Shown here: piece by piece, positions 27,414-59,327 of the stretch
How positions within the stretch are numbered: the first letter of the stretch is position 1
How the letters are laid out: each line of letters starts with the position of its first letter
Source: Diphasiastrum complanatum
Lineage: Eukaryota; Streptophyta; Lycopodiopsida; Lycopodiales; Lycopodiaceae
Length of the DNA: 64,000 nucleotides
Direction: 5' to 3'
Assembly: GCA_029204225.1 (NCBI GenBank)
Contig: CM055092.1
Coordinates: 99,636,651-99,700,650 of the forward strand
Notes under the pieces: generated by a model
Told to the model about the DNA's origin: nothing
Seen by the model: the letters and a program-made list of their open reading frames with translations, nothing else
The model's database searches: none
Translations under genes and position numbers: made by a program

Positions 27414-28310
27414 TTATTCCCAAAAATCATCGAGGTCATTTACATCTTTTTCTTTTTCTTGAGTAGCCACCGTACTTTCAAGTGGCACCTCTTCTATAGT
27501 TTCCTCGACTACCGTAGCCACATTATAATCTTGAACCAAGACATCAACAAATTCTCTTGTGTCGCCTACTTTTCCGCTGGCAGGAGGCTGAGGTTCCTTG
27601 GACAAGGGAATTACTGAATCCTCGCTATCTAAACTCTTTTCCACCTCAAATAGTTCATCTGGCAAAATTGAAAGAGATTTCTTTCTCATTTTTACAAAAT
27701 CAACTAAATTAGTATCTAAATCTATTGCAGCAACATGTCTGCATTTCTGAACAACACATGCGCTCGTAGTGCCGCTACCGCTAAATAAATCCAAAACCCA
27801 ATCAGCTGGGTGAGAAAAAATATCAATTAAATGATTAATTAATTGTTGTGGCTTCTGGTAGAGACAAGCCACGGAACCCGTCATTGGATTCTTTAATTTT
27901 TTTGTCACGGTTGGATATTGGAACAAGTTTCTAAAACTTGTTAGCCTGGAAGTGTTGTAATGAAGCATCGAGCATTTGCCATCCAAAGAATAATAACCGA
28001 TGGATATGTATTCTACTTCATTGCAAAGTCGTGCTCCTCTCGAGTTTCTGACATTTCGGCAATGCAGAGTGTATAAGGCTTTTGTTTTTAAATTTTAAAA
28101 TTTCTCTGCAATCATCCTCCTCAATCGAGTAGAAGCATGGTTGATCATCGACACTTTTGGGAAGGTAGGTCTCTAATGGATCCTCCTCCGCAATGGTCTC
28201 ACCCCGTGCCAATATCTCCCTGTCCCCTTTTTTTGCTTTTCCCTTTAGAATATGTCTTTTAAATTGCTCTGGAAGGACTTTGTTTTTCTCATCTTCGATA
28301 GATTGAAAAA
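27414..28310 (-). pseudogene. DNA amino-methyltransferase (N4-cytosine/N6-adenine type), C-terminal part
   Basis: From about 28310 the minus strand reads KNKVLPEQFKRHILKGKAKK, DPLETYLPKSVDDQPCFYSI, EEDDCREILKFKNK. After a one-base shift in an A-rich tract near 28090 it continues LYTLHCRNVRNSRGARLCNE, VEYISIGYYSLDG, LKNPMTGSVACLYQKPQQLI, NHLIDIFSHPADWVLDLFSG, SGTTSACVVQKCRHVAAIDL and an acidic tail ending DDFWE (stop 27414). 'KP..LI..LI..fS..gd.VLD.FsGSGTT..a....r...aiD' is motif X followed by the SAM-binding motif I of the amino-methyltransferase superfamily (Pfam N6_N4_Mtase). Motif I near the C-terminus means a beta-class order. The catalytic (S/D)PP(Y/F) motif would lie upstream and is absent. 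Either upstream exons are beyond an intron and lost, or this is a fragment. Land plants with 4mC methyltransferases of this superfamily are known (Marchantia). Confidence 0.75.
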
Positions 28311-40712: not shown

Positions 40713-40843
40713 GCATTTTAGTAATCTGTTTTTTTTTTATTGCGGATTATTAGTCGTGTTTCTATCAAGACAACGTTTTAACAAGCGCACAACAAACAAT
40801 ATTCCAAAATTGTTGTTACTACCAAAGATCTCGCTCAACCAAA

Positions 40844-41911
40844 ATGAATCTGTCTTTTCTAATCGAGAGACTCGATGGAGAGAACTATTGTCTCTAGAAG
40901 CTAAAAATGAAAGTCATGTTATCAGCCAAGGAACTGTGGGACGCTGTTGATGGCACAAAAGTCAAGCCAGAAGGTGATGCATCCATTATCACCAAATGGA
41001 AACTGAGAGATGGCAATCACTCTCAATATCAAGGATACATAGATAATTCCCATACGTAATGCTCAGATAGGAGATGCATGGGACATTCTAGCATCCCTAC
41101 ATGATATCAAGAATGTTTATACTTCCAAGTTACATTTGACGAATAAATTTTTCAACCTAAAGATGTCTGAAGTAGAAAGTGTTACAAGTCATATGAACAC
41201 TTTCAACAATCTTATGGAGTAAATGGCTGCAATCGACTCAATCATTGAAGATTCTGATGCTATTATGAATCTACTATCGAGTCTACCTGAAGCCTATAAA
41301 AATTGGATCATGATAATTTTGACCCAAGAGCAAATCACTCTATCAAGAGAAATTTTGATGTTTCTACAAGAGGAAATCAGAAAATCTACATCCTCCTCAG
41401 GCTCAGGGTTGGATCCTCAAGCTCTATATTCAAAAAATTAGAAGTTCAGATCGAAAAAGAAGAGCAATATGCAGCCAGGGTCGAATTTTGGCTCTGGGTC
41501 GAATTTTGACTCAGGGTCCAATTTGAACCCTTCATCTTTCCAACCAAAGTAGAAACTTTTCTGCAGATACTGCAAGAAAACTGTACATGAAATCAAGGAC
41601 TGCAAAACGTTGAAATATAACAATGAGAAAAAGTAGTACCAACAACAAGCACATAAGACCAAACAACATGATATCGATTCCTGATATCTCGATTCTAGAG
41701 CAACACAACATATGACTCACCACCAAGACTGGTTAAAATATTATAAATCTTTCAGCCACTCTCGAGTTGTGCAACTAGGAGACAACTCATCACATTCTAT
41801 CCATGGTGAAGGAATAGTAAGGATCGAATTTCAAAAGGGTGATGTCAAGTTGCTGTCCAATGTTCTCCATGTACCAAATCTGACCAAGAACCTACTCTTA
41901 GTTAGCATAAT
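40844..41911 (+). pseudogene. Copia family 4 gag-protease remnant
   Basis: Broken frames read FLIERLDGENY, LKMKVMLSAKELWDAVDGTK, VKPEGDASIITKWKLRDGN (gag), then MAAIDSIIEDSDAIMNLLSS and LPEAYKNWIMIIL (41223-41441), FCRYCKKTVHEIKDCKTLKY (zinc knuckle, about 41565), and YLDSRATQHMTHHQDWLKYY (protease, with DSG changed to DSR), QLGDNSSHSIHGEGIVRIEF, VLHVPNLTKNLL. Several stops and shifts. Ends where a miniature retroelement inserted at 41912. The gag part is duplicated at 51932. Confidence 0.9.
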
Positions 41912-42195
41912 TGTGAAAACGTTTTACACTTGGTGTGTGTGGTCAGGCTAGGGATTGAACATAGGACTTCCCCCATTCAAGTGGGGTGCTCTACCACTAA
42001 GCTACCCGTCCATCTGTGTTCCAAGAGTGTTGTGCAAGGTCTATAGCCTTGACACTTTCTAACACTCCCCCTCAAGGCATAGCCTTGTTTAGCTACTACC
42101 CGCCTAAACCACACCCACAACCATGGCTCTGATACCATGTGAAAAGTTTTTATACTAGGTGTGTGTCAGGCTAGGTTTTGAATCTAGGATCTCCA
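41912..42195 (-). mobile_element. Miniature LTR retroelement (TRIM) with a tRNA-like LTR
   Basis: Minus-strand element. One whole LTR of 153 bp (41912-42064; element strand TGTTAGAAAG ... TTTTCACA), a polypurine tract CCTTGAGGGGGAG (42065-42077), an internal region of only 73 bp, a primer-binding site TGGTATCAGAGCC (42125-42137) and the start of the second LTR (42138-about 42195, cut off). LTR copies share TGTGAAAA.GTTTT.A.ACT.GGTGTGTG with about 80% identity. No coding capacity, so mobilised in trans. The design is that of terminal-repeat retrotransposons in miniature. It sits inside the Copia protease remnant. Confidence 0.85.
41941..42011 (-). tRNA. tRNA-like cloverleaf inside the TRIM LTR
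   Basis: Read on the minus strand: acceptor GGACGGG with CCTGACC (one mismatch, one G-U), D arm GCTT/GAGC with loop AGTGGTA, anticodon arm CCCCA-CTTGAAT-GGGGG (four pairs, U33 and A37 kept, anticodon TGA), T arm CTATG-TTCAATC-CCTAG (four of five pairs), discriminator A. Box A (TAGCTTAGTGGTAGAGC, 41988-42004) and box B (GTTCAATCCC, 41951-41960) are present. The short variable loop does not fit a true tRNA-Ser. Probably not a working tRNA but a possible pol III promoter module. Confidence 0.75.
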
Positions 42196-42829
42196 TGAAG
42201 TGTGTTTTGGTGAAAATGGTAAATATTTTTTGTTTGATGTGAAATAGTTCAAAATCAATTATCAAGAGTCAAATGCAACCGTGAAAAGAGATCGTAGTGG
42301 ATTTTTTGCTATCGATTCAACCAAGACATTAAGCATGAATTTTTCAAACACATTGGTGCTGCCTCATCATTGTGAACAAGTGTGTCACATGAGTTTGACA
42401 TCCATTTTTTCTCAATCATAATCAGTAATATACAGTATTTCAATGCAATTTCATGACATTATTGGAACAAATTTTTTAACTTAACATTGTTAAATGTGCA
42501 GGTATTTTTTCAACCAGATCCACTAAACAACAAGTGGTGATATGTTGTTCGAGTTAGCCATGAGCAAGACATGTATTTGAAAATGGATACATTGAGAATG
42601 AAATGGAGGACTTGAATATTGACAACACAAACATGGACGTTGATGAGGATATAGAAATATCTCCAAGTTTTTTTAATATTATAGAAAATACTATAAATGA
42701 ATCGAATGATTCTGACACAAACGACAATATTGAGAGAGTCCGATTACTATAGCACTGATGATGAAATTCATCTAAGCGGGGATGAGTTGCAAGATGTACT
42801 GGCTGATGAATTTGAATCTTGTTATGATG

Positions 42830-42837
<8 letters not shown>
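42196..42837 (+). pseudogene. CACTA transposase 3' remnant (copy a)
   Basis: Encoded peptides: FDVKWFKIN-like segment (broken in this copy), DRSGFFAIDSTK, LPHHCEQVCHMS, stop or intron from 42422 to about 42500 with acceptor TGTGCAG, then VFFQPDPLNNKW, a stop and YVVRVSHEQDMYLKM, and an acidic end LSGDELQDVLADEFESCYDE before TAA at about 42832. The order 'FdveWfd....vkrd..GF..in..k...dpfilp.hceQvFy..d.....W.vv....p' is that of the C-terminal region of plant CACTA (En/Spm) TNPD-type proteins. Stops show decay. Repeated at 52493. Confidence 0.7.
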
Positions 42838-42863
<26 letters not shown>

Positions 42864-42864
42864 C
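42838..42864. repeat. (TA)n microsatellite
   Basis: Directly after the CACTA stop codon; the duplicated copy has a longer tract at 53118. Confidence 0.95.
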
Positions 42865-43454
42865 ACTACCATTTATGTGATAAAATAATAGTTTGCATAA
42901 TTATTGCATCTCTATAATGCGTTCTTGTATTTTTCAAATTCATCTTGAGTTCTATCTGGCAATCACTTATGATTCATTTTAAATCAAATGCTTTCACTGC
43001 AATCTATATCTTATTAAAGATCTACCGAAAATTGATTGACCAAATAAGACAATTAGTAAACATACATTGATCATTTATATATGCTTAAAAAATAATTTTC
43101 TTTTGAAACATCCTTACTATACTAAAAATCTATATATTAAAACAATATCTTCATATCTTCACTTTGGTTGAAATAACTTTTCTTTTCAAATAAGAAAAAA
43201 AACTGTAGATATATTCTTGTTGGTTTCGATATTCTTTCTTTGCTTGTTTGCTAACATTGCTTTTTGTTCATCAACAAATTTTTGGAACATAATAATTTCG
43301 TCATAGCATAATAATTTGACATCATGATCATTTGATTTTTAGCTCAAAATCATGATCACATAATAATCATTTTATTATTAGTCAACACTTATTTAAAATC
43401 TCAAAAGAAGTATTATTCAAATTAATCCAACTTATTGGAATTTTCTGAAAATTT
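42865..43454. other. CACTA 3' flank, no gene
   Basis: AT-rich DNA colinear with 53193-53980, apart from an insertion in the second copy at about 53580-53795 that carries 'cacatagtcat' tandem repeats. Confidence 0.6.
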
Positions 43455-43624
43455 GCCACGCGTGGCAAATCTCCATAATTACACTTTGAGTGAAAGTTGG
43501 TTAAATAACAGCCATGCGTGGCACTTCCACACATGGCTCAACCATGACAATCACTTTATTACTAGACCCCACTTCCAGCCTGGATTTTCTCGGAGTACTT
43601 TGGCGTGGATGTGCCACGCATGGC
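43455..43624. repeat. Cluster of GCCACGCGTGGC-type palindromes (copy a)
   Basis: GCCACGCGTGGC at 43455-43466, GCCATGCGTGGC at 43511, CCACACATGGC at 43528 and GCCACGCATGGC at 43613. Motif arrays close to element ends are typical subterminal repeats that bind CACTA accessory protein. Confidence 0.75.
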
Positions 43625-51770: not shown

Positions 51771-51931
51771 AGACCCTTTGTAAAGATTCTTTTTATATTT
51801 TTTCACAAATTTTTCTTACACATGGACCAATCAAAACACTCAAATTCGAAATCTACGTAACGTAACTTTTTGAGTCCACATTTTGATTCCATACTAAAAA
51901 TGACATAACTTTTTAGTGGTAATCTGAAATC
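51771..51931. other. Junction sequence, no gene
   Basis: Short AT-rich link between the family 5 gag and the duplicated family 4 gag. Confidence 0.4.
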
Positions 51932-52370
51932 GTTGTTACTACCAAAGATCTCGCTCAACCAGAAAGTATCTGACTTCTCTAGTCGAGAGACTCGATGGAG
52001 AGAACTATCATCTCTAGAAGCTCAAAATGAAAGTCACGTTATCAGCCAAGGAACTATGGGACATTGTTGATGACACGGAAGTCAAGCCAGAAGGTGATGC
52101 ATCCATTATCACCAAATGGAAACTGAGAGATGACAAGGTATACGTAATTCACATATCATGGATACATAGATAATTCACATACGTAATGCTCAGACAACCA
52201 AGGATGCATAGGGCATCCTAGCATTCCTACATGATATCAAGGATGTTTATACTTCCAAGTTACATTTGACGAAGAAATTTTTCAACCTAAAGATGTCTGA
52301 AGTAGAAAGTGTTACAAGTCATATCAACACTTTCAAAAATCTTATGGAGCAAATGGCTGCAATTGGCTCA
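51932..52370 (+). pseudogene. Second copy of Copia family 4 gag fragment
   Basis: Matches 40815-41235 closely ('gttactaccaaagatctcgc', 'ttatcagccaaggaact', 'gaaggtgatgcatcc'). Contains a small local duplication of 'ttcacatacg/atggatacatagataattc' at about 52146-52185. Confidence 0.92.
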
Positions 52371-52492
52371 AGGCATAGCCCTTTTTAGCTATTGCCCGCC
52401 TAAACCACACTCACAACTATGGCTCTAATACCATGTGAAAATTTTTTATACTTGGTGTGCGTGGTCGGATTGAACATAGGGCCTCCCATAAG
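52371..52492 (-). mobile_element. Second copy of the TRIM, truncated
   Basis: Matches 42070-42195: the internal region, a primer site with one change (GGCTCTAATACCA) and the first 55 nt of the LTR (TGTGAAAATTTTTTATACTT...). The 3' half of the tRNA-like structure (box B, ATTGAACAT) remains; the intact LTR seen at 41912 is absent here. Confidence 0.85.
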
Positions 52493-53111
52493 TGTGTTTT
52501 AGTGAAAATGGTAAATATTTTTTGTTTGATGTGAAATGGTTCAAAATCAATTATCAAGGGTCAAATGCAACCATGAAAAGAGATCGTAGTGGATTTTTTG
52601 CTATCGATTCAACCAAGATATTAAGCATGTATTTTTCAAACACATTGTTGTTGCCTCATCATTGTGAACAAGTGTGTCACATGAGTTTGACATCCATTTT
52701 TTCTCAATCATAATCAGTAATATACACTATTTCATCGCAATTCCATGACATTGTTTGAACAATTTTTTTTAGCTTAACATTGTTAAATGTACAAATCGAC
52801 TAAACAACAAGTGGTGGTATGTTGTTCAAGTTAGCCACGCACAAGACATGTATTTGAAAATGCATACATTGAGAATGAAATAGACGACTTGAATATTTAC
52901 AACACAAACATAGACGTTGATGAGGATATAGAAATATTTCCAAGCTTTTCAAATATTATAGAAAATACTATAAATGAATCGAATAATTCTGACACAAACG
53001 ACAATATTGAGAGAGTCCGATTACTATAGTACTGATGATGAAATTCATCTAAGCGGAGATGAGTTGCAAGATGTATTGGCTGATGAAATTGAATCTTGTT
53101 ATGATGAATAA
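52493..53111 (+). pseudogene. CACTA transposase 3' remnant (copy b)
   Basis: Here the first part is open: ENGKYFLFDVKWFKINYQGS, NATMKRDRSGFFAIDSTKIL, LPHHCEQVCHMS, ending in a stop at 52711 that probably reflects intron sequence. The second exon from about 52800 reads KWWYVVQVSHAQDMYL in one frame and LSGDELQDVLADEIESCYDE to TAA at 53109. Diagnostic of the C-terminal domain of plant En/Spm TNPD proteins. High similarity to 42196-42837. Confidence 0.75.
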
Positions 53112-53116
53112 ATTAT

Positions 53117-53117
<1 letters not shown>

Positions 53118-53192
<75 letters not shown>
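53118..53192. repeat. (TA)n microsatellite
   Basis: About 75 nt of TA, much longer than at the matching position 42838. Confidence 0.98.
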
Positions 53193-53195
<3 letters not shown>

Positions 53196-53987
53196 AACCA
53201 TTTATGATAAAATAATAGTTTGCATAATTATTGCATCTTTATAATGCATTCTTGTATTTTTCAAGTTCATCTTGAGTTCTATCTGACAATCACTTCTGAT
53301 TCATTTTAAATCAAATGCTTTCACCGCAATCTATATCTTATTAAAGATCTAGCGAAAATTGATTGACCAAATAAAACAATTAGTGAACATACGTTGATCA
53401 TTTATATATGCTTAAAAAATAATTTTCTTGTGAAACATCCTTACTATATTGAAAATCTATATACTAAAACAATATCTTCATATCTTCACTTTGGTTGAAA
53501 TAACTTTTCTTTTCAAATAAGAAAAGAAATTGTAGATATATACTTGTTGGTTTTGATATTCTTTCTTTGCTTGTTTGCTCAATCCACAATGTTGACAATG
53601 CAATTCATCACAATCAAGTACACACAATCATGCAAATTATATATGAATTCACATAGTCATGCACAATCATGCAAATTATATATTCACATAGTCATCATAT
53701 ATTCACATTATAATATGAGAGATAATAATATACTTTTTCGCAGTGTTCGATTATTCATTCATCTTTGCAAACACAAAAACATACATAACAATGTTTTTTT
53801 TTCATCAACAAATTTTTGGAACATAATGATTTTGTCAGAGCATAATAATTTGACATCATGATCATTTGATTTTTAGTTAAAATCATGATCGCATAATAAT
53901 CATTTCATTATTAGTCAACACTTATTTAAAATCTCAAAAGAAGTCTTATTCAAATTAATCCAACTTTTTGAAATTCTCTAGAAATTT
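53193..53987. other. CACTA 3' flank (copy b)
   Basis: Colinear with 42865-43454 except for about 215 nt (53580-53795) containing three 'cacatagtcat'/'catgcaaattatata' repeats. No gene. Confidence 0.6.
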
Positions 53988-54150
53988 GCCACTCATGGCA
54001 AATCTCCAGAATTACACTTCGAGTGAAAGTTGGTTAAATAACAGCCATGTGTGGCACTTCCACGCGTGGCTTATCCACGACAATCACTTTGGCGCTCATT
54101 TTTTTAAATTCTATTTTAAAAACAAATTGTGTGGTACTGCCACACATGGC
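53988..54150. repeat. Cluster of GCCACGCGTGGC-type palindromes (copy b)
   Basis: GCCACTCATGGC 53988, GCCATGTGTGGC 54043, CCACGCGTGGC 54060, GCCACACATGGC 54139. They have diverged by transitions mostly at CpG, compatible with methylation-driven decay. Confidence 0.75.
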
Positions 54151-54757: not shown

Positions 54758-55458
54758 TGTGAAGAATTGCCAAAAATTGGCAAATCTAGGTTGATCAAAA
54801 ACCATGTAGAATAGTGTAAATTGTGTACACAAGTGGGTCCCACACATGTAAGGCCATGATGCCACATGGGAAACCCATCCTAATGTAGGTTAGGTCAAGT
54901 CAAGAGAGTTGGTCATGTCTATTTGGTGGTCATCCCTACTTTATAGGACCTACACCTAAGTTTAAGGTGAAAATTTGACCAACTAGCTACCTACCAAGCA
55001 TAACTCTAGGAAATAGACTAGGGTTTCATTTTAGGTCAAGGAGAGTGAGTTAACTTCCTTATTATATGCTGGAAATCCACCTAACTTCAAGAAGAAAGTC
55101 GAATTTGCTATGTATTCCCTCTCTCCATAGTGAGTAGATAGAAAATTTTTGGAACTCATTGGCAATCTCAAGCTAGTTCACTATGTACATTGAGTTTTTG
55201 TGATCCAAATGAAACCAAATCAATTTCTACTTGTTTCTTAGGTTGAAGGCCGTATTACAGTCTGTAGTACACACGTGTGGGCTCGGATTTCAATGTTTAT
55301 CGATGCTTTTGATTGTTAATGCTTGTTGTTTGTCAAATTGCCAATCTAGATCAACTTTTTTGTGTCTAGTTTTTTGATAGATTGTTAAGCAAGCATCCAA
55401 TCACTCTTGTGGATCTTTTGTAGATCCATTTATGGTCCTAAAGTACAGTACTTTCACA
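54758..55458 (+). mobile_element. E2 5' LTR
   Basis: TGTGAAGAATTGCC ... TACTTTCACA, followed immediately by the primer-binding site. Contains ACACGTGTGG at about 55271 and CTTTATAGGACC at about 54940. Confidence 0.97.
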
Positions 55459-55471
55459 TGGTATCAGAGCC
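55459..55471 (+). other. E2 primer-binding site
   Basis: TGGTATCAGAGCC, directly adjoining the LTR; initiator-Met tRNA type. Confidence 0.97.
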
Positions 55472-58626: not shown

Positions 58627-59327
58627 TGTGAAGAATTGCCAAAAATTGGCAAATCTAGGTTGATCAAAAACCATGTAGAATAGTGTAAATTGTGTACACA
58701 AGTGGGTCCCACACATGTAAGGCCATGATGCCACATGGGAAACCCATCCTAATGTAGGTTAGGTCAAGTCAAGAGAGTTGGTCATGTCTATTTGGTGGTC
58801 ATCCCTACTTTATACGACCTACACCTAAGTTTAAGGTGAAAATTTGACAAACTAGCTACCTACCAAGCATAACTCTAGGAAATAGACTAGGGTTTCATTT
58901 TAGGTCAAGGAGAGTGAGTTAACTTCCTTATTACATGCTGGAAATCCACCTAACTTCAAGAAGAAAGTCGAATTTGCTATGTATTCCCTCTCTCCATAGT
59001 GAGAAGATAGAAACTTTTTGGAGCTCATTGGCAATCTCAAGCTAGTTCACTATGTACATTGAGTTTTTGTGATCCAAATGAAACCAAATAAATTTCTACT
59101 TGTTTCTCAGGTTGAAGGCCGTACTACAGCCTGTAGTACACAGGTGTGGGCTCGGATTTCAATGTTTATCAATGCTTTTGATTGTTAATGCTTGTTGTTT
59201 GTCAAATTGCCAATCTAGATCAACTTTTTTGTGTCTAGTTTTTTGATAGATTGTTAAGCAAGCATCTAATCACTCTTGTGGATCTTTTGTAGATCCATTT
59301 ATGGTCCTAAAGTACAGTAGTTTCACA
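58627..59327 (+). mobile_element. E2 3' LTR
   Basis: TGTGAAGAATTGCC ... TAGTTTCACA. The ACACGTGTGG of the 5' LTR reads ACAGGTGTGG here. Confidence 0.97.

Follow-up and report, generated by a model that had tools for sequence, protein, structure and literature searches.

The window analysed here, a stretch of 64,000 nucleotides from contig CM055092.1 of the clubmoss Diphasiastrum complanatum (positions 99,636,651 to 99,700,650 of the forward strand, assembly GCA_029204225.1), carries on its minus strand a miniature LTR retroelement (TRIM) whose parts are collected in Table 1. Read 5' to 3' on that strand, they follow each other as the end of a 5' LTR, a primer-binding site (PBS), an internal region, a polypurine tract (PPT) and a 3' LTR. 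The original prediction, made from the letters of the window, had described an LTR of 153 bp with TG/CA ends, a PPT, an internal region of 73 bp, a perfect primer site for initiator tRNA-Met and the start of a second LTR. We confirmed the coordinates of all but the last, and LTR sequence is indeed present there, but it is the end of a 5' LTR and not the start of another one. The PBS is presumably complementary to the 3' end of the initiator tRNA-Met. The truncated 5' LTR of the window copy includes the T-arm half of a tRNA-like part found in the 3' LTR, and at least that half was therefore inside the element when it last moved.

Table 1. Coordinates of the TRIM, its second copy and a Copia element (Copia-A) in the window
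Feature	Position	Strand	Remarks
3' LTR	41912-42064	-	153 bp, TG...CA ends; coordinates checked
tRNA-like part, 72 nt (LTR positions 54-125)	41940-42011	-	Rfam RF00005 and ARAGORN
box A-like stretch (D arm)	41988-42004	-	motif with TRGCY and YGG, as in PMC10886601
box B-like stretch (T arm), degenerate in the window copy	41951-41961	-	position computed
T4 run near LTR end, candidate weak Pol III terminator, within the LTR end common to Copia	41916-41919	-	
internal region	42065-42137	-	73 bp; coordinates checked
PPT, end of internal region	42065-42073	-	
PBS TGGTATCAGAGCCA, starting at 42137	42124-42137	-	
5' LTR, truncated (LTR positions 99-153 left)	42138-42189	-	80% identity to the 3' LTR over 55 columns
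shorter copy of the TRIM (end of the 5' LTR, PBS and internal region), flank included	52367-52522	-	sequence comparison
5' LTR of Copia-A, a relative of the mosaic-forming Copia; PBS at 55459	54758-55458	+	
3' LTR of Copia-A	58627-59327	+	98% identical to its 5' LTR

The second copy, which had been predicted as a remnant at 52371-52492, is real and lies inside a duplicated block (40807-43557 versus 51927-54090) whose pieces are 88-92% identical. It is 84% identical to the window element over 160 bp. Its 3' LTR and most of its PPT are missing, and Rfam did not match it at E values up to 1. Another locus on the same contig as the window (L054) matches the duplicated block beyond the TRIM, and L055-L057 (C1, the window contig) and L075 (C7) have flanks in common with the block or with L054. 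Elsewhere in the window, an open frame at 27414-27986 on the minus strand contains an N6_N4_Mtase domain (Pfam PF01555), is 61% identical to a database protein and represents a DNA methylase of bacterial type in a genome that looks like that of a plant. The liverwort Marchantia also has a 4mC methyltransferase of bacterial origin (PMC8885841, accessible part), so that the frame would be in keeping with a seedless plant, though no proof of one.

The tRNA-like segment predicted inside the LTR, with a length of 71 nt, was recovered by both Rfam and ARAGORN, here with 72 nt. It scores 48.2 bits against the Rfam tRNA model RF00005 (gathering score 29, E value 3e-7 for the whole window) and is the only ARAGORN match of the window. 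The cloverleaf pair counts given earlier also proved correct, with 18 of 21 pairs formed (acceptor 6/7, D 4/4, anticodon 4/5 and T 4/5), but we rejected these counts as evidence for a tRNA because the same geometry reaches 18/21 at three other places in the window. It is by covariance score, not by pairing, that the likeness to tRNA goes beyond chance, and the case for the tRNA-like part rests on that score together with the family data presented below. The minimum-energy fold of the window copy as a single strand is not a cloverleaf (z -0.42), with -22.4 kcal/mol versus -13.1 kcal/mol for the cloverleaf. At Rfam gathering scores only tRNA was matched in the window, with no 5S rRNA; a sub-threshold match to Plastid-ycf2 on the plus strand (22.4 bits versus a gathering score of 65.7) was taken as chance.

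Searching the source genome (1,744,706,496 bases in 5176 contigs) with the whole element yielded 773 candidate places, the best 40 of which were scored; all 40 match, and all 40 were read. These are the loci nearest to the window copy and no random sample of the family. Two full LTRs are present in 31 of these best 40 of 773 and not in the other nine, and when loci with flanks more than 80% alike on both sides are counted as one insertion, the 31 loci represent 22 independent insertions. In this genome search, which the original prediction had proposed, the LTR borders recur as a unit: a perfect 5-bp target duplication (TSD) surrounds 13 of the 22 insertions, one more has a TSD with one mismatch, and eight have neither. 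As a control, pairing flanks across different insertions gave 2 perfect 5-bp matches out of 462. Complete copies, judged on representatives of the 22 insertions, are 373-379 bp long and contain no genes. Identity between the two LTRs of a copy ranges from 91.5 to 98.7% (median 97.4%), and by this measure the sampled family is young.

Among the eight insertions without a TSD, GGGAG (the end of the PPT) stands before two and TGGTA (the start of the PBS) behind one, so that these insertions may sit in tandem arrays; in one locus with such borders (L026), further reading revealed part of another internal region before the element. Tandem arrays of the TRIM were seen at L064 (1361-2495), where the LTR and the end of the internal region are repeated in steps of about 182 bp, at L065/L066 and L067/L068, and at L026. 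At two further loci (L020 and L021) the 5' LTR has no TSD and is immediately preceded by TGATACCA, which is the PBS start in reverse complement and in L021 comes after an apparent Copia LTR end. Genome matches frequently come two by two on a contig, nearly identical and in many cases inverted relative to each other (on C9, C19 and C6, for example), which reflects either segmental duplication or an assembly effect. Outside this genome, three patterns designed for further copies had no match in viral contigs; the one match of a D-arm pattern fell on a contig with tRNA-Ile at that place and was taken as unrelated. Pattern searches of GTDB contigs returned no further copies.

Because these loci had been found with the whole element, we also used the internal region alone as a query, which gave 426 candidates, of which the best 40 were scored and 30 loci read, including the window copy and its near-duplicates. 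A near-complete tRNA-like part is present in at least one LTR of 26 of these 30 loci, and the remaining four (L047, L051, L057 and L070) have 49-65 nt of it. A cut 5' LTR with a full 3' LTR is commoner than the reverse among L046-L075 (30 loci); this is partly due to loci related to the window copy, and the copy used as query itself has a cut 5' LTR. The tRNA-like part alone as a query returned 666 candidates, and the best 40, which were scored, all lie inside LTRs: 28 were newly read (19 full-length LTR alignments and nine covering at least 122 of the 153 LTR positions), and the other 12 are in full LTRs of loci from the earlier queries. A SINE with this tRNA head outside LTRs was found in none of these best 40 of 666. 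In the whole-element sample, Rfam scans of 20 of the 40 loci gave tRNA matches in every one, 38 in total with scores from 36 to 61.4 bits, and in complete copies both LTRs have the tRNA-like part at an equivalent position. Of the three outcomes listed with the original prediction as refuting it, not one was observed: copies of the family keep the tRNA-like part (in 20 of 20 loci scanned with Rfam and, with at least 49 nt, in 30 of 30 loci from the internal query), this part does not have the look of a SINE that inserted later, and the LTR borders recur together with 5-bp TSDs (13 of 22 insertions). A SINE or tRNA gene inserted into the window copy only, after the TRIM had formed, would fit the single tRNA match of the window and the truncation of its 5' LTR, and is next to impossible given the T-arm half in the 5' LTR remnant, the equal placement in both LTRs of complete copies and the location inside LTRs of all best 40 of the 666 tRNA-only matches.

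With family copies scoring up to 61.4 bits in Rfam, the LTR might instead have been built round a tRNA gene that still gives a working tRNA. Several features make this very improbable. The anticodon loop of the tRNA-like part has 6 nt, and among 34 ARAGORN predictions over 20 loci, 33 have a 2-nt 'anticodon' and no amino acid, the sole exception being one prediction in L011 that was read as Ser. The anticodon loop is moreover variable among copies, and in the window copy another fold is favoured over the cloverleaf. The tRNA-like part is probably a promoter and not a working tRNA, the latter being contradicted by the 6-nt loop.

An alignment of 36 stretches gave the majority forms TAGCTCAGTGG and GGTTCAATCCC, which we take, following the motifs given for the Helenus elements in the accessible text of PMC10886601, to be box A and box B, respectively. 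Both boxes had been predicted for the LTR, and both stretches were located in the window, but box B is degenerate in the window copy. Across the family the boxes are kept in most copies, although hardly more than other parts of the LTR: pi is 0.032 in box A and 0.024 in box B, compared with 0.105 in the acceptor stem, 0.128 in the anticodon loop, and 0.035 and 0.032 in the parts of the LTR outside the tRNA-like part. Eight columns of the tRNA-like part have less than 90% agreement, and six of these are CpG positions in most copies (as judged by eye). With CpG as a confounding factor and hardly any excess over the rest of the LTR, we rejected box conservation as proof of promoter function. The T4 run at the LTR end is present in 21 of 22 5' LTRs and 20 of 22 3' LTRs and in none of the 22 internal regions, but the lack of other T4 runs is uninformative as a sign of Pol III (P 0.80 in shuffles of one copy). 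In the 5' LTR this run stands before the PBS, where it would stop Pol III early, and since it falls within the LTR end common to Copia, it may be an integrase or integration signal.

We infer that the TRIM is probably transcribed by Pol III through its tRNA-like part. Initiation would depend on box A and box B and take place close to the tRNA-like part in the 5' LTR; the polymerase would have to read through the T run of that LTR and would continue into the 3' LTR, where the T run at LTR position 146 would end the RNA. This would give an R region of approximately LTR positions 54-149 and a U5 of only 4 nt, with the PBS presumably primed by initiator tRNA-Met. The hindrance expected from a T run before the PBS is one reason to consider a TRIM transcribed, as other LTR elements are, by Pol II, in which the tRNA-like part is a passenger derived from a SINE once inserted in the ancestral LTR. 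The slight difference in conservation between the boxes and other parts of the LTR agrees with a passenger as well, and in copies as young as those sampled (LTR identity 91.5-98.7%) the absence of decay says little. We nevertheless regard this explanation as unlikely: box A and box B are kept in most copies and the acceptor stem and anticodon loop vary, a difference to be read with the CpG positions in mind, and the same boxes are present in fungal and animal Helenus families (PMC10886601, accessible sections), a recurrence not expected of a passenger.

In some loci from the internal query, a Copia LTR and not the TRIM LTR lies directly before the TRIM PBS. Mosaics of this kind were seen at L060, L070, L071/L072, L073, L107-L110 and L113/L114, with a TRIM unit (PBS, internal region and LTR) directly behind a Copia 5' LTR. 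Three other candidates, L054-L056, were dropped after comparison with L075 and L057, their upstream end being more like a truncated TRIM LTR. The upstream LTR of L060 and L071 is 71% identical to the Copia-A LTR (scores 580 and 504, versus 88 and 73 for the best of five shuffles), and L070 and L073 have a more distant Copia LTR with 57-58% identity (scores 153 and 157 versus 77 and 70). Directly after the TRIM LTR, five of the eight loci read have a second PBS-like sequence, decayed in L060 and L071 and clear in L070, L108 and L110; it is absent at this place in L073, L107 and L109. Beyond the second PBS follows Copia internal sequence, which in L108 and L110 begins like that of Copia-A (by eye) and in L060, L070 and L071 matches the gag-pol part of Copia-A.

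A query made from the left junction of L060 gave 515 candidates, and among the best 40, which were scored, the junction is spanned by 10 (two each on C22, C9 and C7, and one each on C13, C16, C1755 and C17); the other 30 match the Copia LTR part of the query, in some cases together with the PBS. L071 and L072, the two places on C9, are 99.9% identical and represent a single duplicated locus; the C22 pair, the C7 pair and C1755/C17, which have equal or near-equal scores, may be duplicates too, leaving about six junction groups. A search for the far Copia LTR in five cases succeeded in four; the exception is L110, where the stretch examined contains no matching 3' Copia LTR. Identity between the outer Copia LTRs is 97% in L060, 92% in L071 and 91% in L070 (BLAST pieces of 474, 605 and 847 bp, respectively), or 87% for L070 in a longer alignment. 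In L113/L114 the outer Copia LTRs are 80% alike, TGATG is present on both sides of the whole mosaic, and no recognisable PPT was seen before the far LTR. The flanks of the L070 mosaic agree at four of five bases (ATTTT/TTTTT); as the L060, L071 and L110 mosaics each lack one end, the flank comparison comprises two mosaics, one with a perfect match and one with 4/5.

The signals used in replication are similar between the TRIM and these Copia elements to different degrees. The 11 bases before the LTR, which form the PPT, agree with the TRIM at 10 of 11 positions in the Copia of three mosaics (L076, L077 and L078), at 9/11 in Copia-A and at 7/11 in the other Copia of the window. The LTR end common with the TRIM comprises the last 10 bp in L060 and L071, 7 bp in Copia-A and L108, 3 bp in the other window Copia and in L070, and 2 bp in L073. 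With the PBS, PPT and LTR end in common, the TRIM looks like a set of Copia replication signals with a foreign promoter.

The mosaics point to Copia as the partner of the TRIM. Reverse transcriptase and integrase would be supplied in trans by a Copia that shares the PBS and the PPT (10/11), the nearest type also having the same final 10 bp of the LTR, and template switching between co-packaged RNAs would place the TRIM unit between the Copia 5' LTR and the Copia PBS. The simplest explanation of the mosaics is template switching inside shared particles. They could also have arisen by recombination after integration, between circles or copies of the TRIM and a Copia over the short PBS stretch, and would then say little about the partner. 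The junctions do lie at the PBS common to both elements, one-LTR circles could supply the TRIM unit, two different Copia LTR types occur among the mosaics, and the outer Copia LTRs, 80-97% alike, mean that these insertions are not fresh. TGATG on both sides of one mosaic argues the other way, this being a criterion for template switching of the kind used by Sabot and Schulman (PMC1950507, accessible part), as do three more mosaics with matching outer LTRs by the same criteria. On balance we consider recombination a substantial possibility, albeit one that we rather doubt.

The anatomy, the TG/CA ends, the 5-bp TSDs, the Copia mosaics and the presence of the tRNA-like part in both LTRs of insertions that are independent of each other were observed directly. 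We think it likely that the window holds a copy of a dispersed TRIM of the Helenus kind (LTR-PBS-internal-PPT-LTR) with a tRNA-like promoter module, which would be transcribed by Pol III, be mobilised by Copia in trans and form mosaics by template switching. A more specific proposal is that a Pol III TRIM is packaged by a Pol II Copia with which it has only the PBS, PPT and LTR tip in common, and that strand transfer in mixed particles repeatedly writes the TRIM, Pol III promoter included, into the Copia leader close behind the 5' LTR. This we put forward tentatively, as an idea with a good chance of being right but a somewhat better one of being wrong; if true, a Pol III promoter directed into the element's own genome is part of some Copia lineages. 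The family adds a plant to Helenus, a kind reported among plants, in the openly licensed PMC literature, only from Selaginella. Being young, it also offers a test case for Pol III transcription of an LTR element, and the mosaics name a concrete candidate for its partner. With its swapped promoter and a partner that can be traced, the family makes it testable which signals let an LTR retrotransposon replicate a Pol III RNA.

Several known systems resemble the TRIM described here in part. The tRNA-derived SINEs (SINE2) likewise have a tRNA-like stretch with box A and box B, and are distinguished from it by the LTRs, PBS, PPT and integrase-type 5-bp TSDs of the present family. The mosaics recall the template-switch elements of Triticeae (Sabot and Schulman 2007; PMC1950507, accessible part), which also have a third LTR inside, outer LTRs that are alike and a 5-bp TSD round the whole; in those, however, both units belong to one kind of element (Angela-like, for example), whereas here the unit inside the Copia is a TRIM whose LTR is unrelated. 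Cassandra, as described in the accessible text of PMC7215508, also has a small-RNA gene with a Pol III promoter in its LTR, the PBS TGGTATCAGAGC and tandem arrays. That gene is a 5S rRNA, as opposed to the tRNA-like part found here, and the window has no 5S match at the gathering score. According to Kojima 2024 (PMC10886601), nothing indicates which autonomous partner Cassandra has. Ajax, a nemertean TRIM with part of a 5S rRNA (PMC10886601, accessible text), likewise has an LTR presumed to contain a promoter for Pol III (TRIMp3), and differs in being animal and 5S-derived.

The original prediction of a tRNA analogue of Cassandra is supported by the family as a whole, but elements of this kind had already been published: Kojima 2024 (Biology 13:119; PMC10886601) named TRIMs with tRNA-like LTRs Helenus and, in the accessible text, reported them from fungi, animals and one plant. 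The sole plant member there is Helenus-1_SMo of Selaginella moellendorffii. We found no other plant Helenus in the openly licensed PMC literature, and the term tRNA does not occur in the accessible part of a survey of plant TRIMs (PMC4717578). By the same text of PMC10886601, Pol III promoters are proposed but unproven for Helenus, and a Copia partner of the fungal families was inferred from PBS similarity and one case of common internal sequence. Helenus has the following in common with our family: a tRNA-like part with box A and box B inside the LTRs, two LTRs with a PBS and PPT between them (two full LTRs in 31 of the best 40 of 773 places), a length below the 1000 bp used there as the screening limit (373-379 bp here), and, as in plant and fungal Helenus, a 5-bp TSD (perfect in 13 of 22 insertions, and with at most one mismatch in 14 of 22). 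In both, the tRNA part is unlikely to be a functional tRNA, and Copia is the likely partner, as in fungal Helenus. Compared by description, Helenus-1_SMo differs in its dimensions, with an LTR of 120 bp and an internal region of 85 bp versus 153 and 73 bp here. The clubmoss Diphasiastrum complanatum is therefore a further plant with a family of the Helenus kind, and what is new in it, and not described for Helenus in the accessible text of PMC10886601, are the mosaics, in which a Copia element contains a TRIM unit where its LTR meets the PBS.
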